A DNA stretch of 64,000 nucleotides from Fragilaria crotonensis. Lineage: Eukaryota; Bacillariophyta; Fragilariophyceae; Fragilariales; Fragilariaceae. The stretch is from the NCBI GenBank assembly GCA_022925895.1, contig JAKSYS010000268.1, positions 1 through 64,000 of the forward strand. The letters are read 5' to 3'. Position numbers and translations under genes: made by a program. Shown here piece after piece: positions 2,081 through 61,272 of this stretch; within the stretch, counting starts at the first letter, position 1, and the number at the start of each line of letters is the position of its first letter. The notes under the pieces are model-generated. The model worked only from the letters and a program-made list of their open reading frames with translations. It had not been told where the DNA came from and did no database searches.

Positions 2081-4655
2081 ATGGACGGCATATTAACCAC
2101 CGAGCAGGAGAATTTCTTTGAGCCCTTGCCTCCTTCGTCGTCTGCGAGCGGGTGAAAGGTCGTGCAAAGAAGTTGTTACTCGGATTCGTCCCCTATTACA
2201 ACAAGAGAAAAGTCGACGCTCCAGCTTGACAGCCATGGAGATTGAAGAGGGCACATCTGAAATATTTTCAACACCCTTGAAGACTTTGTCTTCGCCGACC
2301 AGTCTCGAGGAGACACCTCTGATTAAAAACAAAGCACGAAACGGAGAGGGAACACTGAAGTCGAAACCTAGTCGTCCAAACGAGCCCTTTTCCTTCGAAA
2401 ACACTGCTACCGCAAAACGAATTACCGTCTCGAAGGATAAGATCCAACGCGATTTTGTCTTTGATGCTGTCTTTGGTCCCAATTCGTCGCAAAAGGAGAT
2501 ATATGAAAAGTCAGTGGGAGATGCTGTTGGCGAAAACATTTTTCAAGGCTACAACACCACAATTCTTGCCTACGGTCAGAGTGGTTCTGGCAAGACATTT
2601 ACCATGTTCGGGAAGAAGGAGGCTGAGAAGATGGCCCCATCTCCAGATGGATCCACTTCTGCTCAGTCATTCAACTTTGACAAGTCCTCCGATCTCGGAG
2701 TTATGTCAGTGCAGAAGAAGGAATCATTCCGCGCGCTATAATGATCTCTTCTCAGCCAAACAACGTCATGAAAAGTTAGGAAAGGTCACAATAAGATTGA
2801 ACTTCTTGGAACTCTACAACGACGAGCTTCGAGACTTGATGGTCGATGGAGGATCAGACTTGAAAATTCGTGATTCTGGCGATGATGGATTCTTCGCGGA
2901 GGGGCTCACATCGATCGCTGTCGAATCTGCAGAACACGCGCGGGATTTGATAGACACTGCATGTACTCGCAGACGCACAGCCTCCACCAAACTTAACATG
3001 CGGTCAAGTCGTTCCCATGCTATTTGCACCCTCACGGTATCAACAGAATTAGTTTCAGCCAAGCTGACCATGGTGGACTTGGCTGGGTCGGAGAGGATCA
3101 AGCAAACTGGGGTCAGCAAAATGGCACAAAAGGAAAGCATCAACATCAATAAGGATCTGTTCGTTTTGGCAAAAGTCATTTCTGCCCTTGCTGACAAGGC
3201 AAACCAAAAAAGGAATGTTCATGTCCCATACAGGGACAGCAAACTAACTAGCTTGTTGCGAGATTCTCTCGGAGGTGAGCAAACATTGCCTAACTACATG
3301 TATCGTAACTTGATCATCCCGTGCCTCACCTGATATCTGTTAGGCAACTGCTGTACTGTTGTCGTCTCGTGTGTTTCACCTGCAGATACGTGCTTTGAAG
3401 AATCCATGAACACTTTGCGATACGCTGAGCGGACGAAAACAATTACCAACAGTATCAAACAGAATGTCCTCCCAACCGTCTTATCCGCAGCAGATTGCGC
3501 TTCATTACGTGCTGAAAATAGACTGCTGAAGGCGACGATGCTTAATTTGAGGAAGCGCATTAGTTTACTAGAGGTTGATGGCCATGATGGATCCCTCTAC
3601 AGTACTGATTCCTTCAGCTTTACAGGCGCTAAAGGATGATCTGTACATGTCAATGAGTGGCGAAACAGCGGCGTCTACCTTTCTAGCATCACTCGCGTCT
3701 CGAGGAAAATCAACATTCCGATGAATCGGTCGGAAGTTTTGAATCTCTGGAAAGGTTGAACCGTACCTTGTCAGAATCGGCGAGTATAGTTCTCAGAAAC
3801 AAAGGGTCATTGATCGACAAAATGTCTTCTGTGGATCGAATTGCATATGAACCAAAAAGTGATGACATCATCAGAGGAGAGCAACGCATAGCGAAGGCCC
3901 TGAAAGCTGAGAATGACAAGCTGCGAAAAGACAACAAAGATCTTATGGATTCCAATTTCGCGATGGAGACCCAGGCGAAGAATTTAGGACAGGTGATAGT
4001 TAGCGTTCGAGATGAAATCAAGGAAGCAGAGGTCAAACTCGACTCTCTTCGATACGATGTTGCGCTCATGGAGCAACACATGCAAGGTTCGCAGCCCGAA
4101 GTGTCCACCTTTCGTCACCGTCTTAACGCACATGCAGCGCCAGCCCGGGATATCGAGATGTCTATTATCGCCAGGAAACCAGAAACGAAAGCCCTGCCAA
4201 CAAACGATGAAGACCTGCGTTCGAGTTTGGATCAGGCTAGACTTGAGTTAAGACAGAGTCAGCGCTTGCTTGAATCAAGAAGTGAACGCGTTGATGAACT
4301 TGAAAAAGAGAGCTGAGTTCTCGTGAAGAGATTAGTACTTTCAATACCAACTCACAAACGAGCGTACGCTTCGCCAACAATGCGAAACGCATCTCCAGGC
4401 AGTGACGACAGAATCTGAAAGGCTTCAAAAGTTTGCGACGAGCTTCGGATGAGCGCGGCTGTACAACAGGATGAGAAGGAGAACATGCTTGGCAGTCTCC
4501 AAGCCAAAGAGGCACTAATTGAGGAGATGAGAGAGGAGCTCCGCAAGAGCCAGGCCATTGCTGCAGAACTTGATGTTGCACATGAAAGGTGTGGTTTAGT
4601 TGGGGAAGAAGCGAATGAGTCCTTCTCCGATTCGATAGCCGGGATTCGTCATTGA
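2081..4655 (+). CDS. Kinesin-like motor protein, reading frame broken in this sequence
   Basis: N-terminal kinesin motor followed by coiled coil. Landmarks in order are VVTRIRPL (first strand), AYGQSGSGKTFTMFG (P-loop, about 2570-2620), NMRSSRSHAICTL (switch I), LTMVDLAGSERIKQTG (switch II), YRDSKLTSLLRDSLGG, and NTLRYAERTKTI closing the motor. A 69-bp intron at 3275-3343 (GTGAGC..TTAG) joins DSLGG to NCCTVVVSCVSPADTC exactly where kinesins expect it. After the motor come charged heptad-like stretches to about 4640. The frame changes near 2140, 2730, 3600, 3710 and 4315-4450; for example IPRA then NDLFSA is split over frames at 2730. This is either an active gene seen through sequencing indels or a decaying copy; the motor is too well conserved for an old pseudogene. 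The start is the ATG at 2081. The next ORF at 4678 may be its C-terminus. Confidence 0.75.
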
Positions 4656-4677
4656 CGTCTCCACTTTACGAATTTTA

Positions 4678-5487
4678 ATGAATCCAAATCAACCGCTCAG
4701 TTCGACGCACATTGACATTCGTGCTCACGCCGCAAAATGCTACAGTTTGCTAATAGAGCAATTGAGAAGGGTCGCACTAATCGAAGTGCTGTCAGTTCCG
4801 TTGTTTCGAGGTACTGAGTTCCAGCCAGTCACTACGAAAGAACTTATGTCTGAAGTGAAGTCTGTCAAAGTTCCGAGGGCCGTGGCTCGTTTGGGCAAGC
4901 CTCCTTTACCCAGTCGCCCAAACCCTGGCACGAACGATGATCAACAGGTGGTTATCTCCAACATGGAAAAAGTTGAAAAACTCCTCTTCTGCATATGCCA
5001 AGACTCTCTTTTCTCTGGCAATGGCGAGCACGTTGAGTTTTATCTTCCAAAACTCGGAATGGCGTGTACGTGCGGAAATCACAAGAAGGAAACGTCGACT
5101 CTGGATGGACCTGATCCCACAGCTCTTTCAAATATTCTAAGACCTTGGCAAGTGGAATTCCTATCAACCTTGAATCTTCGGAATGGCGTTGATCTAGTTC
5201 ACGCCTTCAATCAGCGAGGAGGGGAGATGGCTAAAGCAATGCGAAAATGGCGCAAGGACAAGAAGATGCCATCGGTGAAGACAAAGTCGTGCGGCATAGC
5301 CTTGCACATTTGGTCTACGACGTGCAAAGCCGTTGTCAAATCTGTCCGTAAACAAAAGTCTAAAGGAGCCAAAGTCTTTTCAAGGCCTGATTTCTTGGAG
5401 GTGACCAACAATGCCGATGGGCGAACAGTATCAACGCTTGGCTGCGGATCAATTATTGACTTGAATGCCGAGTTTCTTGAACTCTAG
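4678..5487 (+). CDS. CxCG-domain protein A (related to C-terminus of the gene at 6650-9000)
   Basis: An unrecognised 269-residue protein. Residues about 95-250 are clearly homologous to the C-terminal part of the minus-strand gene at 6650-9000: both have a hydrophobic FYLPKLGMACTCG or FFLPQLGMACTCG start, then ILRPWQ.EFL, then MAKAMRKWRK or LAKAMKKWRK, then K.SCGIALHIWS or V.SCGLALHIWS and a basic stretch. The two nearby Cys in a CTCG motif and the later SCG suggest a metal or structural site (inference). It starts only 23 bp after the last kinesin frame, on the same strand, with no WR repeats of its own, so it could be the kinesin tail rather than a separate gene. No function can be assigned. 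Confidence 0.6.
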   Translation: MNPNQPLSSTHIDIRAHAAKCYSLLIEQLRRVALIEVLSVPLFRGTEFQPVTTKELMSEVKSVKVPRAVARLGKPPLPSRPNPGTNDDQQVVISNMEKVEKLLFCICQDSLFSGNGEHVEFYLPKLGMACTCGNHKKETSTLDGPDPTALSNILRPWQVEFLSTLNLRNGVDLVHAFNQRGGEMAKAMRKWRKDKKMPSVKTKSCGIALHIWSTTCKAVVKSVRKQKSKGAKVFSRPDFLEVTNNADGRTVSTLGCGSIIDLNAEFLEL

Positions 5488-5935
5488 CTTTCTATTCGAG
5501 TTTATTCATCACTTGTAATACGAATTGCAAGATTCGTTATGACTTGAAAGAACGGTGATTGATGTGTAGGTGTGCCTACTATGACATAGCTTTTAATTGA
5601 TGCAATTAGTCCATTAGTCTAATCCAACACTCCAAGTACAGTAGCACTATTATGTTGAGTTACGTACTGGAGGTAGTATGAGAGTTGGTACTGTCGTACG
5701 GAGTTCTACATAATTTCTACGAACAGTACCGTATGAATACAGAATACAGAACAAGTATGTTCAAGTACAAGTAGGAAGTAGGGAGTTTTTGCGTTGAAGT
5801 TTTGTATTTGATGTGCGCGGGACGTACAGCTGTATGTACCATACTCGCACAACATAATTACCAACTACATTTGGGGTTCAGTGGTATCACACATCGCACA
5901 ATCCTGTTACCCCCACATCCTCAAGAGCGTACAAC
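5488..5935. other. Intergenic region, GTAC-rich
   Basis: 448 bp between two plus-strand genes. Holds several short GTAC-type words (TACTGGAG, GTACTGTCGTAC, ACAGTACCGTA) around 5640-5770 and a probable promoter for the gene at 5936. No ORF or RNA gene is seen. Confidence 0.4.
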
Positions 5936-6504
5936 ATGAGGTCATCTATCCTACTGCTCTCCCTGGTGGGGACCACTTTGGCTTTCACGTCCGTCACCTT
6001 GACCCGGCCATCTGCGACGAAACTCTCGGATGCCACTGGAGGTGCGTGTGCAGAACCGACCCGTCCGTGGCGTCGTTCGTGTTTTATAATCACTCACGCG
6101 CAGAACCTCCGATCACTCTTGTCACGTGAGCAGGATGGGGTTCCACTAACAGTCGCGAAATGAGCGACCTTGAAAAGAAGGGTGGGAAGAGACGGTCTTT
6201 TGATAAGTATGAATCCCAGGAATCCGGCGAATTCTTACGCCAGGTTCAAAAAGACCGAAAAGCCATGATGGAGTTGGAACGAAAGGAACTCTTGAGCGTG
6301 GCAGAATTCGCTGGTATTGATTTTAAGGATCCTGCTACTGATAAATATGCGGTAGATTTATTCATGGACGACGACGATGATATTGATCTTTCAGTACAGT
6401 TTGAAGAAGGTGAGGACGGAGAGATTTACTTGAGCGATAAACCCGACGACGATGTCAGTATTACGAGATTGGATGAAGATACCGGAGCTCCTGGAGTGTG
6501 GTGA
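5936..6504 (+). CDS. Small acidic protein with plastid-type signal, one intron
   Basis: Two exons are joined by a 92-bp intron at 6042-6133 (GTGCGT..GAGCAG), which puts the signal-bearing first exon in frame with the second. The product is about 158 residues. It begins with a hydrophobic signal peptide ending LAFTSV, close to the AF junction of diatom plastid-targeted proteins. The body is charged (KKGGKRRSFDKYESQES), followed by a helix ELERKELLSVAEFAGIDF and a very acidic end with DDDDD and EEGEDGE. I do not recognise the family. The unspliced alternative starts at the internal ATG at 6160 and would lose the signal. The spliced model is preferred because both splice sites are canonical and the phase fits. 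Confidence 0.6.
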
Positions 6505-6649
6505 AGAGGAGGCCCCAGTGTGCGAAGCGCGTGTCGCAACGATGAACATATGAGTTCTCTAAAGCGTAGCTGAACATAGTTAACTTGTTGTCATCCTAAC
6601 ATACTGATACTAATTGTATACACCAAGCCGTAAACTACATCGCAAATTC
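6505..6649. terminator. Convergent 3-prime gap
   Basis: 145 bp between two genes reading toward each other, so it should contain both polyadenylation regions. No specific signal is identified beyond AT-rich sequence. Confidence 0.3.
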
Positions 6650-9000
6650 CTATATTTCGACTTCGGAATCGACCTCAATCACGTCTGGGAGATTAGGCTT
6701 TCGTCCTGAATGAGGTACCGACACGCGTCGATCACCCTGGCTCAAGAGCTGCGATAGGACTGTCATGGCGGTGGGCGGTCTTATCACGTCGACACCTGAG
6801 GCAATCTGACGTCGAATGGATCTAACGTATATCTTACACACCTTTGACCAAATATGAAGTGCAAGCCCGCAAGACACAGTTCGTGCTCGCACCATGTTGT
6901 GCTTCTTGCGCCACTTCTTCATGGCTTTCGCAAGGATACCGGCCGATCGATGATATGCTTTGACTAGCTGGTCCCCGCGATGAATACCAAAGGACTTGAG
7001 AAACTCGCACTGCCACGGTCTTAGAATCCTGTCAATAGAAGTAGGATCATTGACCTCTGGATCGGGGAATATTTCAGGATCCTTGCCACAAGTGCAAGCC
7101 ATTCCAAGCTGAGGCAGGAAGAACTCGACCAATTTGTCGGTGCCTGAAAAAATTGGAATCTGCACAAGCGCAGCTTCTCAAGTGTCCATTGGGGGCGACA
7201 ATTGGATCTTCGCCCTCTGGAATAACATCGGAAGCAACTTCGACATCATCGAAGAGTGATTCTGTTTCCTCCAACTCATCTTTAGACGAGACTGACCCCA
7301 GCATAGGTGCATGTCCAGCTGATAACGCCGCAATGAAATCTTTGATCGGGGTCATTCTTGGCACGCTTCTTGACTGATGCTGAGCATACGGCGATTCAAA
7401 CTCCAGGGATGAGTAATTCTTGTCACTCCACTTTTCCATGAGGTCGCGGATCGCCACACTCGCGTTCGAGGCAAATTCCTGCGCACGGCGCTTACCAGCC
7501 GACTCACTCAACTTGTCCCGAGGCACATCCTGCCCGCTCGAGTCACTGCTCCAAGCAGTCCTCAGGTTGTTGAAATCAACATTGGCGTCGTGTGCCAACT
7601 CAGCAGCGCGTAGTTTTCCAATCGATTCATTTGGACCCCTTTCCGCTAGCCCGTCCTTTTTGTTTTGAGTCTCGTATAGGGACCAATTTGTTTTCAATGC
7701 CTCGAAATTGCTCCTTGCTTCGCCAGTAGACTGCGTTTCTGCTGACGCGTTGTTTGGAACTTCATCGTCACTAGCATTCGATTCGGGGACGTCCGATGTC
7801 GGGCTGGTGTAAAGCCCAGCGTCGACGGCTGGTAGTGCCGCCGTTCTCATCTCAACTGATGCATCCGTCCTATTCTTGATTAGTCCTTCAAAGTATTTCG
7901 CTGCAATACGTTCTCTCGTCTCACAGGGAGTATAAGGTGCGCTATCTTCATCACTCGGAACCTCGTCTGAAAATAGCTTTATGTCAGTGACGACGTCTTT
8001 ATCCCATGCAACGGAACGCTCGCTGATGTACGGGCTTTCTCCATTGTTCCATCGTTGTTCGAGGTCATCTTCATAGCGATTCACTTTGGACTTCCAATAA
8101 GTGAGGAGCTCATCGTCGTTTTCGGGAAACGTAGCCTCCCCTTGACAAGATGGGTACAACGCGGCTTGATCACAATCGCCGCCTGCATGGTTTTCTTTGT
8201 TGGTCGTCAGGGCGTTCTCGCTCATTGTATCAGGAGGATTCAAGCATGATCCGGCAAAACGGTGAATAGACACAGCGCTGCTTTCGCCTAGGGTCGCATC
8301 GACGGGTTCTAGTTCGTCATTGACGAGGTTCATGCCGCAATCGTCTACTAGTTGGCGCTCTTTCGTATTCCTGGTAGTGCTCTTGCACACGCCGATTCCG
8401 ATGTCGCTGTGAGAGCCTTCAAGATTAGAAGGACGAGACTTCCACGTTGAAATTAGATGGCTGAATTTCCTGTCGAGTGTCTCGAACACTCTTGAGCACG
8501 TTTCTTTCCGTCGGAATTGCCACAACGTGGAGTGCTTTGGGGTTCCCGCCAATTTGAAACGAGCTGCATGAAGTTACCACTTGAATCGCGAGCAAATTCT
8601 CGGCTCGTTGCTTCCTGTATGCACACTTGATTCGGTGTTGTCCATGTCTGGGCGAAGATTCCACTGTCTTGTTTGTTCTCCTGTTTGTCAACTGGGTTTG
8701 GCAGTCAGATTCTTCCCTTTCGCTAACGGTTTCAATATCGACAAGGATGCAAGGTCTATGTGTCGAAAGCGATTCAGCCTCCGGGGTATTTCGGGTCTGA
8801 TGCGCCTGTAACTGCATCTCCACATTCGGATTTTTGCCAGAGTTGTGACGAGCGAAATCAGGTCCATCCTCACGCCATCGACGCAATACCTGCTGCATTG
8901 CTGATCTCTGCCGAAGCCTAGCCTCTTTATCTTGACCATCGATAATATTTGTATGCACTGCCGTTTTGATTTTGTGGAGACATTCAAGCGATAATGGCAT
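6650..9000 (-). CDS. WR-repeat protein B with C-terminal CxCG domain
   Basis: An unrecognised protein of roughly 780 residues. The N-terminal two thirds hold spaced motifs of the form xRAxEFA....Fxx(L/I)xxxW(R/S/K): QQVLRRWRED, NFMQLVSNWREP, FSHLISTWKS, FEALKTNWS, FNNLRTAWS and IRDLMEKWS. Each is preceded by an A-E-F/L-A helix. The C-terminus (about 6650-7150) is the same CxCG domain as the gene at 4678. Three frame changes interrupt it: near 8610 (RKQRA to EFARDSSGNF), near 8475 (HSTGN to FSHLISTWK, one T short) and near 7170 (LEKLRLC to IPIFSG). In each case the repeat or domain resumes at once in the new frame, so these look like single-base errors rather than introns. The start is the ATG at 9000. 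It lies head to tail with gene C. Confidence 0.65.
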
Positions 9001-9044
9001 CACTGCAAGATCAAGGGCTTCGAGTCTGAGAGAGTGTATGTGTA

Positions 9045-11650
9045 TTACTGAGCCTTCTTTGTGAACGGGGTAAACTTAAAACGAACGTGCTTTCTCTTGA
9101 GTTCCTCGACCAAGACATGCTGTGAGTTTCCGTATGATCTCTGAAGGTGAGCAAGATCTAGGGCTCTCAATCCCTTTGACGAAAAGTAATACCCACAGCC
9201 ACATTCAGTCATTGAGTGAGATTGGAACGGGCACCTCATACTCGTTTGCATGTGGAAACCCGAGTTGTTTAGTATACATGACCGCCATCGCGACGCGGTA
9301 CCATCGAATTCTACATCAGAACTCTGCTCCTCATGTTTGTGTCCAAACTGCTTCGTGAGGTGCTGAAAAGCTGACTTTGACGATACGTGCTGTTGAACCC
9401 AATCTTCGACGCTGTACGCTTCCGACGCATTCCATAGAGCCCTAATCTGTGCGATTTTTCATTTGTTCCGTCTGACAGACCCCGACCACTGGTTGTCTGC
9501 TGATCAGACGCCATGACTGAGCTGATATCACGCCACTTTTTCAATAGCATATGAAAATCTTCGCTGGAACAAGTATTTTGACGTGCCCACTTGCGGAACT
9601 TCGGACCTTCTGCAGCACGCCATTGCGAAAGCAAAATGTCAAAATCCCGATTGACAACACGATTGTCCTCCTGTTTACCGCACGTCTCTTTTCCCGCTGC
9701 TTTCCATTGTTGGACAAGAAAATCGAACGCATCGGAGGAAGCAGAATTCATTTTAGCCCATTCCTCAAAATCGTACGTTTCAGATTGACGCCACATTGCC
9801 AAAGCGCTTTCAAAGCTTTCGCATGCAGATGATGGCGGCAACACTTCTCTCCTTTGCCCGACGTAGGGGTTTCCGTCACGCCACTTTCGAAGAAGGGATT
9901 GGAACTCCGATTGACAACATGATTGCTGTCGAGCCCATTCGTGAAACGAACTAGCTTCCGCCACGCGCCATCTCGATAGGAGGCGATCAAATTTTTCAAT
10001 CGCGATACCTGAAAGTTTTTCAGTGCAAATAATCTTATCACGCGACTCCTCCTTGCTAGTTTTCACGTGTTCTTGAAACTCGATAGGAGAACTGACACGA
10101 GGTGTGGATGATTCCAGAACTTCCTGTTCTTTTGAATCATGCCAGAACTTCTTCGATTTCCTGCTTGTACTTGATTCCAAGTCTTGGGAGCTGTGTACCT
10201 CTCGAAGAGCATGAGCAGAAGTTGATATCGCTCCTTGCAGCATAACATCCTGCTCGTCTCGAGTCGATGATTCATAGCCAGGCAAGGCTTCACGCCAGTG
10301 CCGCAGCAACTCCTGAAACTCGTCGGATGTATGCGATTGCTCGCGTGCCCAGTCTTCGAACTCGGTCTGATGTGACTCTCGCCATTGTTCCATAACCTCG
10401 TCAATGCTGCCGAGTGACTCTTTGCGTTCACTTTCAGCATCTCCAGGTCGTTTATCCACTCTTGCCTCTCTCCACTTCGACAATAATTCCTGAAACTCGT
10501 CCGCAGATCTTGCATGCGCTTGAGCCCAATGCTCAAACTCAGCTGCTTGCGAATCATGCCAGATCTTCAATATGCCTTGAAGATTAGTTTTGGCTTCGGA
10601 GGCGTAAGTCATAGCTCGTTGTTGGCCACTCGCTGCCTGTTCCTGTCTCGCCTCTCTCCACTTCCGCAACAATTCTTGAAATTCGTCAGGCTTTCGTAGG
10701 CGTGCAAAGTCTGGGGTGTGAGTCCTAGAAGGTGTGTCCTCCATGTGTCCCTTCCTCCAGGTGGAAAGGACATTTTGAAAGTTCCCAGTCGATTCCCTCG
10801 CGAATTCTTTGGCTCGGTCCGCGCCCTTTGTAGCACTGCTCTTTCGTTTGTCGAGCAAAAAAGCGGCTAGTGGCGAGAGATCCCATTCCGAGGTATCTGC
10901 CACTTGAAACGACGATATCGGAGTAGAATCGGTCACATCGATCTCGAGCTTGCGATAGGGTGTCTCGCCAGTCCTTCCCATTAATCCGTGTGCTCTCCAG
11001 ACGGCGTATGCCCATTCGTATGGGTCATTTGCTTTGACAGGAGATTCAACCCTGATACTACTCGGACTGAGCTGATGATCCTTCTGAATTTCCGGATGAT
11101 CGAGACTTTTATCCGGACGAGAGTCGCCTTTAAGAGAAATATGCTTATACCGGAATGTCGGAGCAGGCGTTGTTACCAATGTGGGGCTGGGCTCGAAGTT
11201 GAACGAAAACCGGCTCCTTCTGGTACCTGATATGTTTCCACCTTGCTCTCTAGAAGCTAATGGTGTACGACGGTGAGATGGCGTCTTTGACACAATAGCA
11301 GGCGTCAAAGGAGATAGAATCGCGTCCTGGTAAACTCCTGTATTTTGCTGCAGCGCAGGATTCCCCATGCCTTCGTTCTCCTTGTCTTGAAGTGCGACCA
11401 GAAAGTTTGTTGTGATGCCATACAAATCCAGTGCGCTTACATCGCTATCATCGTCCGAATCATCGTTGTAGTCTTTTATTGCATTTGCAATCTCTTGCTG
11501 AACGCGTTCAGCGTCTGCATCAAGTTTTTCAATGAAGTCCTTTAGCTTGTTCAGCGCATCGAGAGCATGCTCGGCGTCGTTGTTGTGAAGGAGGAAATCT
11601 TCATCTTTCATTGAGTCCTCCTCCTCGTCAATGTGACTGGACGCGATCAT
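9045..11650 (-). CDS. WR-repeat protein C, two exons
   Basis: An unrecognised protein of about 844 residues. Residues 25-60 are a likely coiled coil; an EWAYAVWRAHGLMG motif sits near 215; from about 330 on there are five full copies and one variant copy of a module of about 45 residues: FxxhLxxWRxxEaxxFxxWAxxxxxSxxxFxxLLxKWR. A predicted 71-bp intron at 9447-9517 (GTCATG..GCACAG, phase 0) joins KKWRDISS to IRALWNASEAYSVEDW. That restores the sixth module and continues to a new C-terminus (exon 2, 9045-9446) containing a CGCGY motif and a basic helix that weakly recalls the CxCG domain of genes A and B. Without the splice the ORF stops at 9311. The function is unknown; the repeat pattern suggests a helical scaffold or partner-binding array. 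Confidence 0.65.
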
Positions 11651-15635: not shown

Positions 15636-18165
15636 TCAACACTCACTACAGCAAGGGCAGTCGACTTCATCGCAATCTGCGGCAATGTAAATAGCATCTG
15701 CCTGCGAACAGAGTTCGTCTGGCATGGTGCCCGACAAGGAGTTGTCACTGACCGTGAGGTTCGCCAAACGCGGCAACCCTCCCAACTCTGTTGGTATCGT
15801 TCCCTTCAAACTATTGCCGAATAAGTCGACCAATTCGAGGCTGGTCATGCTGCCGAATTCAGTTGGAATATTGCCGGAAAAATTGTTCTCATCCAGTCGT
15901 AACCTGGCGAGAAGCGTCAATGCCGCGTACTGTGTCGGAATTTCACCTTCCAATGCGTTGCCACTTAGGCCGATGGTCTCTGGAGTAGTAGTGTGAGAAT
16001 AAGAACGTAAGGCCATTGCACATGTGATTGGAGACAGTTCCACCACCAACGTACCTAGGTTTGTAACTCTAGCCAATTCTGTCGGCAATGTTCCAGTTAA
16101 GTCATTCCTGGCAAATTGCAGGTACGCAAGTGACTTGAATTCGCCAAACTCCCTCGGAATTTGCCCGTAAAGACTATTGTCCTTCAAATTTAGTTTTTCC
16201 AGCGATTCGAGCCACGATAGTTCCACTGGCAGTGTCCCCAATAGAGAGTTTTCACGCAAATCGACTTGAAGCAAGTTCCCACTCCCATCGCACAACTCAG
16301 TGTAGCTGAACCACGTACATTCGTTAATGTCAGATATCCAACCATCCGAATTGACCCAATCAGGGCCGTCAGTGCTGTAAAACAAGGTGGCCAGGACGAA
16401 ACGCTGCACCTTTTGTTCGTCGGAATAGGAATCAAGCGACGGATCCTGTGCTAGCCAATGCAGGGCATCATTCTGCGGTGTCGAAGACGATTTGAGGGCA
16501 GCTCCATCGTCGTGGGTAGACAGATCAACAAACAGGCTAACCAGGGTTGGGTCGATCCCAGAGGTAGCATCCCCAGCCTCGGAGGGGGCTGGCGTAGATA
16601 GTGGCATTTCGGAAGGAAAATCAGTTGGCGATGGAGTCTCGTGTATCACAGGGGCAACGGATGGGCTCAGGGTTTTAACTGTTTCTCGTTGCGATGGCGA
16701 CGGAGACTCAAGTTTCATAGGGGCCTCGGAGGGCTCGGGGTTAAAACGGTGTCTTCTTGCGATGGGGCGGAGTGTCGAATGTCATAGGGGCCTGGGAGGG
16801 ACTCGGAGTAATAACTGTGTCTCGTTGCGTTGGAGACGGGTGCCGAACGCCTCTGGGCCCAGGGATGCGCTCGGAGCTGTGACTGTTTCTTGTTGCGATG
16901 GCAACGGTGTCTGTAAACCCACTGTATCGTCGGTGAGCGCTACTGGGGCCGAAGGTGTAGTTGTTGTTGGCGAAGTGGTTTCACTTGGTGAAGCATTGAA
17001 AGGCATGTCGGTTGGGGGCGACGATGGTGGCATCACCGTGTTGTTCGTCACTGTTGGCGAGGTGGTTTCGTTTGGTGTAGCAATGAAAGGCATGTCGGTT
17101 GAGGGCGACGATGATGGCACCGAGGTGTCGTCCTTCGCAGTTGGCGAGGCGCTTTTCGGCAAAGATGGAGCTGCGGTTGTGTTGTTCGGTGTTGGAGTCG
17201 GATCTGGCGTCGGCGTTGCAGGTTGCACTGTTGGCTCTTCCGTAGGAGACTCGGACGGCCCTTTGCTTTTCACTGCGGAAGGTTGCCAGGAAGCAACAAT
17301 TGACGGAGATTCGGATGGCAGAACAGCCGGAATTGACGGAGATTCGGGTGGCAGAACGGCCGGAATTGACGGAGATTCGGATGGCAGAACGGCCGGAATT
17401 GACGGAGATTCGGATGGCAGAACGGCCGGAATTGACGAGGGGCTCTCAGATCCCGACGCGACACTTGCAGAAATACTACTAGTGGGATCGACAGCTTGTT
17501 GCTGGGATCCCTTCGATGGAAGCTGCTTGGCGAGGATCATGGCAACAAGTGACAATTCCAAGAGTTCCGACAATGAGTAACATGATGATAAGGTTTCTCT
17601 TGCTGCGGCAAACCGGTTGCAGCCGAGGGTTTGAAAATGTCGAGGCAGCATCACCGTTTGGAATTATTTTCTGGGCTGAATTCTCCACGTAAATGACGGA
17701 AGGAATATCAGCTTGTCGGACCCGAAGGAGTCCATCTGGCTCACCATTGTTGGTGTCAATTGCAAGCGGAAATGGATCGGTCTTCAGCTGTTCGGCGTCT
17801 TTCCGTGTTTGACGGTGATACGATGATCCTGTGGCTGGATCTGCAGGAGCTGGTGTTGGGTGGGCAGATGACGCATCCAGAGGTGTGGCATTGTCGATTA
17901 GCAGCGGAGGTGCGAATACAGCCTGCCCTAAGTTCCCAGAATTTGCTCCCTCCGACGAGTTCCGCTCATGTTTGTTCATGATGTACTCGAAGTAGTGCTT
18001 GTTGGGGTCGTCGCCCCATAAGAGCTCGTCTTCGTACAAAAGACCGTTGGTTGGTTCTTCCAATGATAAGTTAATGCTGCCTGCTCCTGAAGATGGTGCT
18101 CGCCATTTTCTTCGGCTCATATCGGCTGAGCCTCCTTGTTCTGAAATCGTCCCGTCTTCAGACAT
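15636..18165 (-). CDS. LRR membrane protein with Ser/Pro-rich stalk
   Basis: A single-pass membrane protein of the diatom LRR type. The N-terminal about 190 residues are polar and presumably cytosolic, with a WGDDPNKHYFEYI motif. A transmembrane helix follows (NLIIMLLIVGTLGIV..LVAMILA, about 17510-17580), then a long Ser/Pro/Thr stalk with 36-bp tandem repeats. Next is a cap (LFYSTDGPDWVNSDGW, ECTWF) and about six LRRs of the NxLxGxIPxE type, ending in a Cys-rich tail. A 75-bp intron at 15980-16054 (GTACGT..CTCCAG) joins VTNL to ETIGLSGN and restores LRR spacing. The frame shifts within the helix (near 17535) and in the stalk (16720-16860), probably single-base errors. The role is likely cell-surface recognition or adhesion (inference). 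The paralogue at 19745 shares the N-terminal motif. Confidence 0.75.
17299..17437 (-). repeat. 36-bp in-frame tandem repeat in the LRR protein stalk
   Basis: Nearly identical 36-bp units encode PSESPSIPAVLP about four times. The length is a multiple of three, so copy number can vary without breaking the frame. This is a typical length-polymorphic stalk of a surface protein. Confidence 0.8.
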
Positions 18166-41981: not shown

Positions 41982-42332
41982 TGTCTCGCTCTCCTCTCAT
42001 TTCGCGAGAACAAAATTTATGATCTAAAAGGACATATGTCTAATATCTCCAATCACATATCTTTTCTCTCATTCACATTTCGGTTCTCCATATGACTACC
42101 ACTATCATCTGATACCTCTATCACACTTCAACCCTTCCATATCCTTCCATCCTTTTCCATGCTACATCCTCATACCATCTCTACATCTCTGCATCTCTAC
42201 GATAAATTACTACCGATTCCTATGTATAATGAGAAGTGCATCACCTCATCTCTACATCGCCATCCCTCACAAAAATCCGCTTTTTCGGTCATCTCTACAT
42301 TCCTCTATCTCTCATCATCTTCATTCGCCATC

Positions 42333-43830
42333 ATGTCTTCCCTCGAAGCGATCGATCTCTCCGTCCTCATTGACCTCCCCGAGGGTGTCGTCCAAGCTAT
42401 CACCGATGCTCGTCTCGAGTTCGCCACCATTGCTGCTGACAGGGAGACCGAAGCCACTACTCTCGCCATCGAAAGGGAAACCGAGCGGATCACCCTCGCA
42501 ACTCAATTCGAGACCGAAAGGGCCAACAACAACAGGCGCATTCGTGGTCTTGAAGACGCCCTCGGTGCCCTCTCTACCAGACCAGACGAGCACCCCTCCG
42601 CTTTCACGGATCTCCCACCTGCAACGGGTACCTACAATGACCTCGTCGGAGACTTCCTTCTTGCCGAACGCACTGATATCGAGCTTGAAACCTCCATTAT
42701 GCAGATTGTCTCCAAGGCAGAACGTCTTCGCCTCTCGGCCACGGATAAGGGTAAGCTCTATACCGCCTTCGTGAAAGGTTCTACATCCAAGTTCAAAGCA
42801 ACTTCCACCATTGTCGGTCTCGACGAGATCTCTACAATCGAGAACATCTCCTCCTTCGAAGAACTCCGCATTGAACTCCAGAAACACATCACCAGCATTT
42901 CGGTCCATCCTGTCTTCCTCATCCTCAAGTTCGATCCCGATGGAAACCTCATCGACCCTGACTCTGAGGCTGGTGCCCCCATCAATCTTCTGTCAGTAAA
43001 CATTCTTCCTCCCCTGGCAGAGATCGAAAGGTCCATGAATTTCTACCATCGTCGCGGGTCCACCTTCAATCGAGAGAATCTTGCCTGGTCTCTCGAAGCC
43101 GTTCGCAACTCGTGCGATAAGGAGCTTCAAGTCATTCTCGATGCAAAGATGCTCCGATACAAGGCATCTGAACGTTTCGGACCACTATACTACTACGAGC
43201 TGGTCCGCCAAATGACAGACGTCGACAGCAAGGCGATCCGCGGCATCACTCAAGAATTGACGGCACTTAAGGTGACCGACCAGGAAGGCCAATCCATCGC
43301 CAAGACCGCCAGTATCATTCGTTCCACCCTCATCTGGTTGGAGATGGTAAAGATGGTGCCCCCTGACATCGATGCTATCGTTCTCGACATTTTGGAGACC
43401 TGCACGGTCCCTGACTTTGCGCTCTACTTGAAGACGCTCTCGACCAACGCCTCTCTCAATGGGGTGATACTCACATACGTTGAGCTTTTGGAAAGGACCG
43501 AGAACCACTACCGAACACTCGTCATCACCAAGAAATGGGACGCAGTCGGCCACCAAGGATCCAGCTTCCAAGCGCAACGTGTCCCTACTTCCAGTCGCAC
43601 AAACGAAAATCCCCGTCCGCGTGTTAACATGCCAAGCTGGAGTCGAACTCCTCCACCCACGGATACCGAACCACACGAGCGGACATTCGAAACGACGCTA
43701 TTTAAATGGTGCGCCATCTGTCAACGCTGGTTCTTCGGTCATCGAGCCCATTTGACCGACGAACATACCCCAGGACATCCATCCCGTGGACGTCGCCCAA
43801 CAACATCTAGCACACCTGTCGCGAACACCC
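42333..43830 (+). other. gag region of the Ty1/copia element (fossil part)
   Basis: Encodes a helical capsid-type region starting near MSSLEAIDLSVLIDLPEG, followed by a zinc-knuckle-like segment (WCAICQRWFF, then His residues) and a Pro/Ser/Ala tail. Identified by position after the primer-binding site and by the terminal finger. Part of a broken element. Confidence 0.75.
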
Positions 43831-44399
43831 CATCCTCATCTGCTCATCTCGCAGCAGCAGCGCCAACCGCTGACCCTCCACTACCTGATGTTCCCACTCC
43901 TTCTGGGCTCTCTCGTACCTACTTTACAGGGGGCCTCTGAAAAGCCGGTCGGATGCTCCAAGTCCTTGTCTCAAGAGCTTTCATTGGCCACACTTCCACA
44001 GACATTGCTCCACCATCGACTGACTCCCTCTATCAGCCGGTCGAACGTCACATTTTTGGCGCCACTTCGAACTATCACTCTCGACGAAAGCAAACCGAAC
44101 TCTTCCGTCTCATCGCCCACCATCTCTTCTCTCCTTCATCTCTCGGCGTCATCCTTCGCAAAACGCTCTACCACTTCATCCTCTCCCGTTTTGCGATCGC
44201 CCTTCACTACCTTCTTTCTTTCCCTCTCACCATCCTTCGTCACTTACTACCATTTGAAGGCTACCATCCCATTTCCTACGTTCATCCTCTCGTCATACAC
44301 ACTTCTCCCATGCCTTCAATCTCCAAATTCAATCCCTCACCGTTTGACTTCCACTTTTGTCTCGCCTCCGACTCCGTCACTCTACCCGTCGCTCTCAAC

Positions 44400-47300
44400 G
44401 CACATGCCACCCGTGCGGACTTCGATCCCGACTTCGTTGCTACACTCCTCTCTCGACAACCCGGTCACGATATCGTCGACGTCATCCTCGACACCGGCTG
44501 CACCTTCTCCATCACGCCAGATCGCCGCGACTTCGTCTCCTATGTTGAAGGGGGGTTTCGCTGGCCAGGTGCAGACCGTTAACGGACCCACCGCTGTCGC
44601 TGGGACTGGTATCGTCCGCTGGACTCTTATCAGCGAGGACGGCGCCCAAATGGATCTCCTCATCCCCTGTCATCATGTCCCCGCCTCCACCGTTCGCCTT
44701 CTTTCTCCACAAGACTTCTGTCAATCCCAAGGCTTCGATCACTCCAAAGACCAGTTCGGTGGGAATTCCAACTACTTTTGGATGCACGCCGACCATCATC
44801 ACTCGCGTTTCCAATGTCCCATCGACCCACGCTCGAACCTTCCGGTCGCTCTGGCCAAAACTCCTTGTAATCCGGGGGGCTGTCTACCTACTGACTTTGG
44901 CGACGGCGTCGCGTCCAACATTCCATGTTCCTCCTGCAACCGCCACAAGAACATCGTCGGCCTCTCAGTGCTCGAAGAGACCAACCAGAATATCACGGCC
45001 GCGCAGAAAGACTTACTCCTATGGCATTTCAGGCTCGGACACCTCGGGTTCGCACACCTCCAACATCTGATGCGTCCTCGCACGGTTGAAGATCTCCGCT
45101 CCACAACGAAGACAGAGAAGCCTACCGTCATTGAGCCGTGCATCGTCCCCTAAAAATCCAGCCACGCGCACCTGCAAACCACCGCTATGTGCCTCATGCC
45201 AAATCGCCCGAGCAAAACGTCGACCCACCGATGTCGCAACGACCACCGTGCATCAAGAGGCCCTACTCAAGGTGTCAGACCTACGACCAGGTGACAGAGT
45301 TTCGGTTGATCAATACGAATCGTCCGTACGTGGAAGACTAGCAACGACCAGAGGAAGAGAGAGTTTTGGTCACAAGTACGCTGGTGGAACCATCTTCTGC
45401 GATCATGCTAGCGGCTTCATCCATTGCTCTCATCAGGTGTCCCTGCGCGCCACCGATACGGTAGTCTCAAAACGAGCCTTCGAGCGCGCCGCTAAATCTT
45501 GTGGCGTCAAAGTCCAAAAATATCATGGCGACAACGGCGTCTTCAAGTCCAAGGAATTCACCGATTCTCTCTCCAACAATCCTGAGCCAGATCAGGAATT
45601 CAAATTCTCGGGCGTCGGAGCACACCACCAAAACGGCGTCGCGGAACGCAACATTCGCACTGTGACGGAAAAGGCCCGCACAATGATGCAGCACGCCTAC
45701 ATGCATTGGCCCGATGAATTCCAAGTGCAGCTCTGGCCCTTCGCCCTTGACTACGCATGCTGGCTGCACAATCACACTCCGAGTAACTCACACGGATGGT
45801 CCCCACTAGAACTCTTCTGTGGGACACAAGTCGACTGTCAACACCTACAACGCGCTCGCGTTTGGGGATGTCCCTCATACGTTCTCAGTCCCACTCTTCA
45901 AGACGGAAAGAAAATCCCGAAATGGGCTCCCAGGGCACGTCGCGGTCAATTCCTCGGTTTCAGCAAACACCACTCATCCATGATCGGTATCGTAAGAAAC
46001 ATTCAAACCGGCTCCGTAACACCACAGTTCCACGTCGTATTCGATGAGCTGTTTTCCACCGTTCACAGCCTCGATGAAGACGACCCCACTTGGGTCGAAC
46101 TCTTCGTTTCAGAACGCGATTACTATGGACCTGACGAAGAAGAAGAGGATGCGGACACTCTCGCCTTCCCTGATCTAGAATCATCCTGGTTACCAGACTC
46201 GGAGATCAAAACTACGCCCGCAGCTCGGTCATCTCCCGCCCCTATCGATCCCAAACCTACCACTACCTCTCATGACTCTCCTTCCAAACAAGACACACAC
46301 GAAGATGACGGAGAGGACGATATCATTCCAGCTGATGACTCATCAAGTAATCCCGACGAACGAGATCAGGTCCCACTCGAGAGTCCTCCCATACGCTCTA
46401 TGCGTGTCCGTCGTCCCAACCAGAGAGTCTTCGGGGACGAATGGACGAATCACACCGTCCAACTCACGCCATCTTCGCGTACACTACTAGGTCACATCAT
46501 TCCGACCCTCAACCATGACGATCTCTTTCTCCACTCCCTGGACTGGGATGCCCCCTTCTCTCAGGACTACGAATCCTTCCACAGTCTCAATCTACTCCAC
46601 ATCGATCCACATACCAACGAGATCGACTGGATTCATCCTTTCACCCTTTCCGCCAAAGCTTCCAGCGCAGACACACCGACTCTCCGAGAAATTCAACAAA
46701 TGCCGCCTGACGAAATTGAACGGTGGTACGACGCCATGGATGTCGAACTTCAAGCACTACGCGACAAAAAGACAATGACAGAAATCAATCGTTGCGACGT
46801 ACCGAGAGGACGGCAGATCGTCAAATCTACATGGGCATTCAAGCGCAAACGACGTCCGAACGGTGAGATCTATAAACTCAAAGCACGCTTCGTGGTTCGC
46901 GGGGACTTACAACGATTGGATGACACTGACAGCACCTTTTCTCCGGTCGTCGACTGGAGCACAGTTCGTCTCCTTTTTATCTTGACCGTTGCACAACGTT
47001 TGAAAAGTACCACCATTGACTTCAACGCCGCCTTCGTTCAAAGTGATCTCCCTGAACCGATCTACCTCGAATTACCTCCCGGATATGCCGTCCCGAACGA
47101 AGACAAAGTCTACAAGGTCGATAAATCCCTGTACGGAGACGTGCGAGCAGCACGCCTCTGGTATAAACACCTCAGCTCTGCACTCGTTTCCAAGATGAAC
47201 TTCACGAAAAGCACGATCGACTCCTGCCTCTATCTCCGTGATGGGCTCGTGTTCGTGTTCTATGTTGATGATGGTATCATTGTCAGCCCGGACGACGAGA

Positions 47301-48262
47301 AAATTCAAAGCTTTATCTCCGAACTTCGTCAATGGAAATTCGACCTGGATATCGAAGCTGACTACGCAGGATATTTGGGCGTCGATATCATCGCACAACC
47401 CGATGGCACTTTGCTCATGTCACAGACGGGGCTAATCGGACGCATCTTGGTCGACCTCGGCCTCACTAACTCAACATCTACCAAAGCCACTCCGGCAGCA
47501 GAGATCCTGGGACCTTTCAAGGCAAGTCCCCCTTTTGAAGAGTGTTTCAACTACCGGTCGGTAATCGGAAAGATCCTGTACGTATCCTCCAACACTCGAT
47601 GCGAAGTTACTCTCGCCAACCACCAATGCGCACGATTCTCGATTGATCCACGCGCTCCACATGGCATCGCAGTCAAGCGCATCGGACGCTACCTTCTCGG
47701 CTCTCGCGACAAGGGCATGATCATCAAGCCGACAAAGGACATCACACTCGACTGCTACGCGGACGCCGACTTTGCCGGTCTTTTCTCAACCTCTGATCCC
47801 GACGATCCCAAATCCGTCAAGTCGAGATCGGGATACATCATAACTTTGGGACAGATCCCAGTTTCCTGGGGCAGCAAACTGCAGTCGGAAACAGCCTTAT
47901 CAACGATGGAGGCCGAATACATCTCCTTATCTCAGGCCCTTCGCGTCCTTCTTCCTCTCCGTATCGTACTCGACGAAGTGTCCATCTATCTCCATCTCAA
48001 GCACGATCCCCAGTCTCTCATCAAATCCACCATCTTCGAGGACAACCAAGCCTGTCTTGCCCTTGCCAACTCCGATCCACCCAGGCTGACACCCCGTTCC
48101 AAAAGTATCGCCGTCAAGTACCACTGGTTTCGCGAGCATCTCAAACCAGGTGTCATCGAAGTTCGTCCCATCGCGTCTGTCGACCAGTTGGCCGATATCT
48201 TTACGAAGCCACTGTCGCCGGCAACCTTTCAAAAGTTACGTAAGCGGCTGCTTGGTTGGTGA
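44400..48262 (+). other. pol region of the Ty1/copia element (fossil part)
   Basis: Protease around 44480-44540 (ILDTGCTFSIT); integrase around 45000-45950 with an HHCC-type LLLWHFRLGHLG and a DDE-type core (FCDHASGF, HGDNGVFKS, HQNGVAERNIRT); reverse transcriptase around 46740-47450 with STWAFKRKRRPNGEIYKLKA, DFNAAFVQSDL and the active-site FYVDDGIIV; RNase H around 47740-48200 with CYADADFAGL and TMEAEYISLS. The order is typical copia. Part of a broken element. Confidence 0.9.
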
Positions 48263-59710: not shown

Positions 59711-59806
59711 ATAGCAACTTCTAGATTGGGTACTACCATCTTGACTTGCAGACCTGATTTTATTCTAGTTGCTCTGCCACCAGCAGCGCTTGCATTGTTT
59801 TCCAAT

Positions 59807-61272
59807 ATGTCAGGTGCATCTGAGAAGGCTACTACAATGATGGTGCTTTTGATGACGGCAGCACTCCTTCCTATTTTGGTTGAGTTCATCCTGAACTATG
59901 AGAGGCAAAGGAAAGAGGAAGAAGTGAAAAGAAGAGCCTTACTTGCAGCTGAGGTTGCCCTCGGAGTAAGACGACAACTTGACGGTCGAGACCATCCACG
60001 CGGTGGCGAGGAGACAGCCCCCAAGCGACGGCGACGTTCACAATTCCGACACCAGCGTGCACAATTGGCTGTCCAAGAAGACTACTTTTCTCCGACTCCA
60101 GTGTTTGATGACAAACAGTACGAACGTATATTCAGGGTAACCAAGCAGATGACCCAAAACATGTTGAACATCTGTGCAATCACGGACCCATTTTTCACTT
60201 CGCAACAGGATGTCAGTGGAAGGTACAACATAGATCCACTTGTAAAGGTTCTCATGGCACTTAAACTAGTTGCCTACGGTTGCTCTCCAAGTGCATTTCA
60301 AGACTACTTCCAAATGAGCGAGGCAACAGCAAGAATTTGTCTTCTGAAGTTCTGCCAAATAGTGTCTCGAGATGAATCATTGCGAAGTGTTTTTGCTCGG
60401 AAAATGACGCGAGCCGATGCAAAACGAATCTCTGCCATGCATGAGGCACAGCATGGAATGGCAGGGATGATCGGAAGTCTAGACTGTACTCACGTTTGTT
60501 GGAAAACTGTCCCGTTGCCTGGCAAGGATCTCAGACCGGAAAGAGGGAAGCCAACGATTGTGCTGGAAGCTTTGCGGACTTCAACTTGTGGTTCTGGCAC
60601 CACTCATTTGGGTGGCCGGGGTCACTAAACGATATTAACATATGGGATCGAAGCAGCCTTTTGAAGAGTTTTCTTGATGGTTCGTTTGCCGCCGATGTTG
60701 ATTTTGAGTTTGAGGTTGGAGGACGCGTTTTTAATCGGCTGTGGCTCATGGTGGATGGAATCTATCCAGAGCTTTCTAGGTTTGTGAAGACAGTTGAGGA
60801 GCCTTCTGATCGCAAAGCATCGGCGTATGCAAAGTGGCAGGAAGCTGCGAGAAAAGACATTGAGCGTGCATTTGGTGTGTTACAACGAAAGTTTCATGTC
60901 CTCGTACGCAAGATAGAGATGTGGTATGTTGGTGACATTGCATGCGTGGTGAACACATGTATAATGCTGCATAACATGATGGTTTCACATCGAATTGACA
61001 CTGATGAGGTTGAATCGGAGGTTCTCTATGTTTATGACGGGCGTTTGGAAACTGATGAACAAGATATTGCACCAGGAGCAGGTCTCGAACCAGAGCAACA
61101 ACATGTGAACAGAAGAGCGGCAGAGATGGAGTTACATCAGCAGCTATTTGAAATCAACAGACAGGATTGTCATTTGAGTTATCAGCAAAAGCAATCATTG
61201 ACTCGCTTCGATTCCAGTATGTACAGCAAAGGTGGGAGTGTTTATACAATTTGGAAGAACACCATCGATTGA
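59807..61272 (+). CDS. PIF/Harbinger DDE transposase
   Basis: About 488 residues. The N-terminal part has a hydrophobic run and a basic segment (RQRKEEEVKRRALL, PKRRRRSQFRHQR), then a helix-turn-helix-like region (YGCSPSAFQDYFQMSEATARICLLKFCQ). The catalytic DDE domain shows GMIGSLDCTHVCWK (first Asp), GSLNDINIWDRS (second Asp) and DIERAFGVLQRKFHVL (Glu). It is the plant/stramenopile transposon protein type. The frame changes once near 60575, where KPTIVLEA continues as ADFNLWFWHHSFGWPGS in the next frame, one base apart. An ATG at 59807 (MSGASEK) is taken as start; the reading from 59726 is possible. Function: cuts and joins the element at TWA targets, normally with the Myb-like partner. Confidence 0.88.

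Follow-up and report, generated by a model that had tools for sequence, protein, structure and literature searches.

A tryptophan-arginine repeat protein of the diatom Fragilaria crotonensis, possibly an Sfi1-like centrin scaffold, and the tail domain that it shares with a neighbouring kinesin

Published targets of centrin are marked by a hydrophobic triad, W1-L4-L8, that can lie in either orientation; in the repeats of Sfi1 the triad is reversed, with the consensus Ax7LLx3[FL]x2W[KR] (PMC9406199; PMC8622359), and the repeats are spaced at 33 residues (PMC5112337). Sfi1 has not been identified in many species, perhaps through strong divergence (PMC6070874). In Plasmodium, a protein that lacks sequence homology to Sfi1 was named Sfi1-like from its count of minimal motifs, and was recovered together with centrin (PMC10180636). 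We compared with these systems two convergent genes in a 64,000-nucleotide stretch of the Fragilaria crotonensis genome, here called the window (assembly GCA_022925895.1, contig JAKSYS010000268.1, positions 1 to 64,000): a minus-strand gene (6650..11650) for a long protein with repeated tryptophan-arginine (WR) motifs, the WR protein, and a plus-strand kinesin gene (2081..5487). Among the papers listed by literature searches on diatoms with Sfi1, centrin, spindle and kinesin, no title or opening of an abstract describes such a protein, and the words "Sfi1" and "kinesin" are absent from the main text of PMC10454807. Our tentative reading, drawn from sequence comparison, is that the WR protein may be a centrin scaffold of the Sfi1 type at the microtubule centre of the diatom, sharing a targeting or pairing tail with the kinesin.

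WR modules and the centrin-binding motif

The assembly searched comprises 881 contigs (62 Mb), and the window is part of one of these, C190. Contig C205 holds a second copy of the region, inverted; identity with the window is 96.4-98.4% in the three longest blocks of the alignment and 97.9% in the 10.45-kb block holding both genes. We infer that the C205 copy is a second haplotype or a homeologue. A preliminary description had placed a cluster of three genes, A, B and C, in the window, and the C205 copy revises this: B and C form a single uninterrupted open reading frame (ORF) of 1670 codons (L006:3346-8358), frameshifted in the window, while A (4678-5487) is the 3′ end of the kinesin gene.

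The 1670-residue WR protein contains 37 tryptophans and 18 W[RK] pairs (shuffle mean 4.6, maximum 13). Sites of the form hydrophobic-x3-hydrophobic-x2-W also number 18, and the tail domain accounts for two (shuffle mean 1.7, maximum 8 in 5000 shuffles). The bipartite modules already described for C are borne out: there are six, aligning without gaps as W-11-W-18-W, with the final W replaced by F in the sixth. Equal Trp-Trp distances counted without an alignment are unexceptional: the best count is 6, and over 2000 shuffles the maximum averages 3.6 and reaches 7. All six modules lie on the minus strand. Module 1 (10460..10597) reads WH-11-WA-18-WR; modules 2 (10283..10420), 3 (9869..10006) and 5 (9521..9658) read WR-11-WA-18-WR; module 4 (9692..9829) reads WR-11-WA-18-WK; and the degenerate module 6 (9333..9469), which spans the window's first frameshift, reads WN-11-WV-18-F. 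Linkers from the last W of one module to the first of the next measure 30, 109, 30, 28 and 34 residues. At least eight single motifs stand outside the modules on the same strand, two upstream (W298 and W331; 10622..10807) and six downstream (W928, W1038, W1074, W1327, W1371 and W1412 in C205 numbering; 7400..8940, a range that the frameshifts make approximate). Several of the downstream six read RAxEFAxxSxxxFxxLxxxW, and R or K follows the W in half of them (3/6).

The module spacings of 11 and 18 residues correspond to about three and five helical turns. Hydrophobic positions -7, -4/-3, 0, +8, +11, +22, +25/+26 and +29, each kept in five or all six modules, share one face of an alpha-helix; the mean hydrophobic moment peaks at 100 degrees, at 0.165 compared with 0.062 in shuffles (standard deviation 0.013, maximum 0.113, n=5000). 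Between the two copies the ratio of nonsynonymous to synonymous differences (pN/pS, from proportions without correction) is 0.36 over the full WR gene (27 versus 21 differences) and 0.32 for the kinesin tail (10 versus 9), values that fit genes under constraint. The earlier proposal of a repeated helical surface under selection is supported by both the moment and the ratio.

The modules fit a motif class known from the literature: the centrin-binding triad in reverse. Two features of Sfi1 repeats were found. The reversed triad (hydrophobic residues at W-7 and W-3) followed by K or R at W+1 is present in many copies, at 15 sites, of which the tail domain holds one (shuffle mean 0.24, maximum 4 in 5000). 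The number of minimal centrin motifs, [FLW]xxW[KR], is exceptional, at 11 (shuffle mean 0.59, maximum 4). Among 213 stop-to-stop ORFs of at least 150 residues (63,232 residues) taken from 20 other stretches as well as the window, a background that is not random and includes the WR gene's own window pieces, the minimal motif occurs more than once only in the largest piece of that gene (9 times). From WR to WR the distance is mostly 28-34 residues, with larger gaps also present.

On the tentative reading given above, the WR protein would be a scaffold of amphipathic alpha-helical modules, whose F/L-x3-L-x2-W-[KR] faces would dock a centrin-type EF-hand protein. The intermediate FxxWA, 11 residues on, could make a second-lobe contact, and the whole might act as a Sfi1-class filament. 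Function like that of Sfi1, in a protein not filed as a member of its family, seems to us the best of the readings, though its chances are somewhat less than even.

Several observations weigh against this reading. The full consensus Ax7LLx3[FL]x2W[KR] has no match in the WR protein; the Sfi1 family PF08457 is not among its Pfam matches at E<=10, and a profile of 15 WR units did not pick out the Sfi1 chains in the PDB. A genome search with PF08457 was also empty, as were its controls, so that absence does not follow from it. Any amphipathic Trp-bearing helix could yield the triad. Proline and glycine make up 17 of 161 linker residues and 6 of 252 core residues, unlike a continuous helix. Canonical centrin was not found in the genome with a centrin query not taken from a database record, whose best matches were calmodulin-like loci on contig C483; perhaps it was missed owing to exon-by-exon gene matching. 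A centrin-like EF-hand ORF (C501:4404-4820) is 34% identical to that query. Finally, an AlphaFold model of the array (window 9452-10798, no alignment) is helical at low confidence (mean predicted local distance difference test score, pLDDT, 45; predicted template modelling score, pTM, 0.21), and in each of the five modules that it covers the helix is interrupted after the second Trp and before the third.

That break, if real, would favour the first rival explanation: the modules would be helix-turn-helix or helical-bundle repeats of a new kind, whose Trp faces pack together and which bind a protein without EF-hands. We regard this as a serious if rather doubtful alternative. A cap-like start, Ser/Thr-x-x-Glu/Asp, stands at the break in three of six modules (by eye), and the missing full consensus and the variable linkers between modules also speak for it. 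Against it, the confidence of the model is low, and the conserved hydrophobic residues of both halves form a single stripe at 100 degrees, which follows directly from a straight helix but which a turn could mimic by chance.

The EF-hand proteins bear on a second rival, that the WR helices are calmodulin-binding sites and the protein a calmodulin scaffold. In its favour, calmodulin typically targets Trp-bearing amphipathic helices, a near-canonical calmodulin is present in the genome (C483, 88% identity over the second half), and canonical centrin was not found. In favour of the centrin reading, the C501 ORF has as its next PDB matches, after the calmodulin fusion chain 4il1, caltractin and centrin-2, both spanning the whole ORF. 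A second centrin candidate, on C545, scored 74.2 bits with the centrin query and 51.0 with a calmodulin query; the best 60 of its 175 PDB matches are all calmodulins. The modules are rich in acidic residues (by eye), which tells against calmodulin, as does a spacing that agrees with the 8-4-1 form of the centrin triad, in reverse and with K or R following the W. On balance we consider a calmodulin scaffold improbable.

The preliminary description knew of no named family with this layout, and this holds as far as the searches reach: no Pfam model reaches its cut-off with the WR protein, NCBIfam gave no match, and neither the protein nor its modules or tails had a convincing sequence match in the PDB (best E 0.13). 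The modules do fit the published reversed triad. The sub-threshold matches suggest a third rival, that the repeats are a divergent form of a known family: TssR C-terminal-like, PRESAN/PHIST-like or SLBP-like RNA-binding helices. The 518-residue array matched TssR_C at E=0.00028 (21.5 of 25.7 bits) and PRESAN at E=0.00041 (21.2 of 23.7), both below cut-off; none of the six single modules matched either, and on the 1670-residue protein the values fall to E=0.31 and 0.64. SLBP was matched by two of six modules (best E=0.026) and in the PDB profile search (4tux/4tuw, E=0.13), where the matches span about 15 residues. Such a relationship is very improbable. A search of the genome for the SAS-6 family was empty with its controls also silent, and hence is no sign of absence.

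A tail domain shared with a kinesin

The convergent neighbour encodes a kinesin. In the C205 copy the first exon matches positions 1-296 of the 327 in the profile of the motor family PF00225, at E=1.9e-78, and 40 PDB sequences match the motor at E<=1e-40, KIF15 best, followed by kinesin-5. The coding part begins at about position 2081 of the window, whose copy is frameshifted. A single intron of 69 nucleotides (3275-3343, plus strand) separates motor and neck, and its excision yields a conserved-looking end of the motor (by eye). The spliced motor had no PDB match at the 1e-60 bound, a bound that the unspliced motor exon also misses. On C205 the frame of gene A extends upstream into a coiled coil, giving a 581-residue ORF of coiled coil and cysteine tail that follows the motor. 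With this ORF eight Pfam families appear at E<=10, none above cut-off (best RasGAP_C, 0.041), and NCBIfam gives matches of the coiled-coil type, the best being SMC at E=1.4e-7, far below cut-off.

The kinesin tail (4990..5484, plus strand) and the tail of the WR protein (6653..7171, minus strand) are 46% identical over 134 residues (BLASTP, E=2e-45), which confirms the common cysteine domain noticed earlier in A and B. The domain has about 135 residues and the order CxC, LGMACTCG, DPT, ILRPWQ, AMxKWRK, SCGxALHIWS and CK; in the window copy of the WR tail the upstream CxC is out of frame. At E<=0.001 the kinesin tail had five matches in the genome, all of them within these two loci or their counterparts on C205; at E<=10 the WR tail added one weak match, on C383 (E=0.26). 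The domain has no Pfam match at E<=10 and no convincing relative in the PDB (best E=0.31). Relatives were confirmed neither in viral contigs, where 14 pattern matches failed confirmation, nor in prokaryote contigs, where 44 did. A fold search with a low-confidence, two-sequence model of the tail (pLDDT 48.8) gave 126 matches at E<=10 and none at E<=0.001; the models of the WR array and the tail support no fold claim.

The cysteine-containing end of former C had been described as weakly similar. Its cysteine patch is rejected as a further copy of the domain and is unrelated to the tails: BLASTP gave E=1.0 against both, and 297 and 312 of 500 shuffles scored equally well.

The genes are convergent, with their common ends facing each other, and a natural origin of the shared tail would be an old local inverted duplication. 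The tail could bring the WR scaffold and the kinesin to one place, or pair them, most likely at the diatom microtubule centre or spindle pole; that the tail-sharing neighbour is a kinesin adds weight to the suspected microtubule link. A stronger version is a diatom-specific microtubule-centre module in which a new homotypic CxC/CTCG tail, duplicated between the convergent neighbours, links the kinesin to a centrin scaffold like Sfi1 and gives a motor and a calcium-responsive filament one common address; this appears to us unlikely.

Frame breaks and other features of the window

The WR coding sequence differs between window and C205 by nine indels, and eight of these are bases absent from the window copy, six of them single bases; in the kinesin-tail ORF all eight indels are bases absent from the window copy. 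C205 has a break of its own between kinesin neck and coiled coil, where the window copy is open, so that neither copy is error-free. The frame breaks of the window are probably assembly errors, mostly small deletions, to judge from the two copies. A programmed frameshift at the first break of the WR gene is judged less likely: the fold of window 9400-9500 is not unusual (z=1.01, one fold), and with deletions so many assembly error is preferred. ARAGORN reports a tRNA-Val within the WR coding sequence (9884-9978, minus strand), which we take as spurious.

One small gene lies between the two tails (5936-6504, plus strand). It has a signal-peptide-like start, MRSSILLLSLVGTTLAFT (by eye), and a 114-residue acidic ORF at 6160-6504, to which an intron probably joins the start.

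Elsewhere in the window, Ser/Pro-rich ORFs with SPSIPAVLP-type repeats (15636-18165, minus strand) adjoin a leucine-rich-repeat-like ORF, with frames that appear broken (by eye). Large ORFs at 42159-48262 (plus strand), in a stretch of strong negative guanine-cytosine skew (42001-48000), look by eye like a Copia-type retrotransposon. Two overlapping ORFs at 59726-61272 (plus strand) look, again by eye, like a Harbinger-type transposase. In keeping with a diatom, the genome at large has 19 silicon-transporter matches at E<=0.001, the best at E=4e-193; 18 exceed the family cut-off, and of the 14 controls one gave a match, below it. Three consecutive silicon-transporter matches lie in a single open frame of 1456 residues (G000:C97:29749-33762).

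Comparison with kinesins and Sfi1-like proteins

A candidate centrin scaffold tied to a kinesin would, if the tentative reading is true, be a concrete handle on the organisation of the diatom spindle, and perhaps also on the shaping of silica walls.

The neighbour gene belongs by its PF00225 motor domain to the kinesin superfamily. It differs from other members in that the motor carries, by eye, a long insert close to its start, and in ending with the CxC/CTCG domain, for which Pfam has no match. Compared with Sfi1/SFR proteins such as Plasmodium PfSlp and Toxoplasma TgSFI1, the WR protein differs in lacking the full consensus, in arranging its tryptophans as W-11-W-18-W triplets with linkers, and in a cysteine tail in common with a kinesin, and no profile similarity was found. 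It resembles them in hydrophobic residues at W-3 and W-7 and K or R at W+1 around many tryptophans, in a spacing of about 30 residues, and in being long and repetitive; by analogy with these proteins, its expected partner would be centrin.

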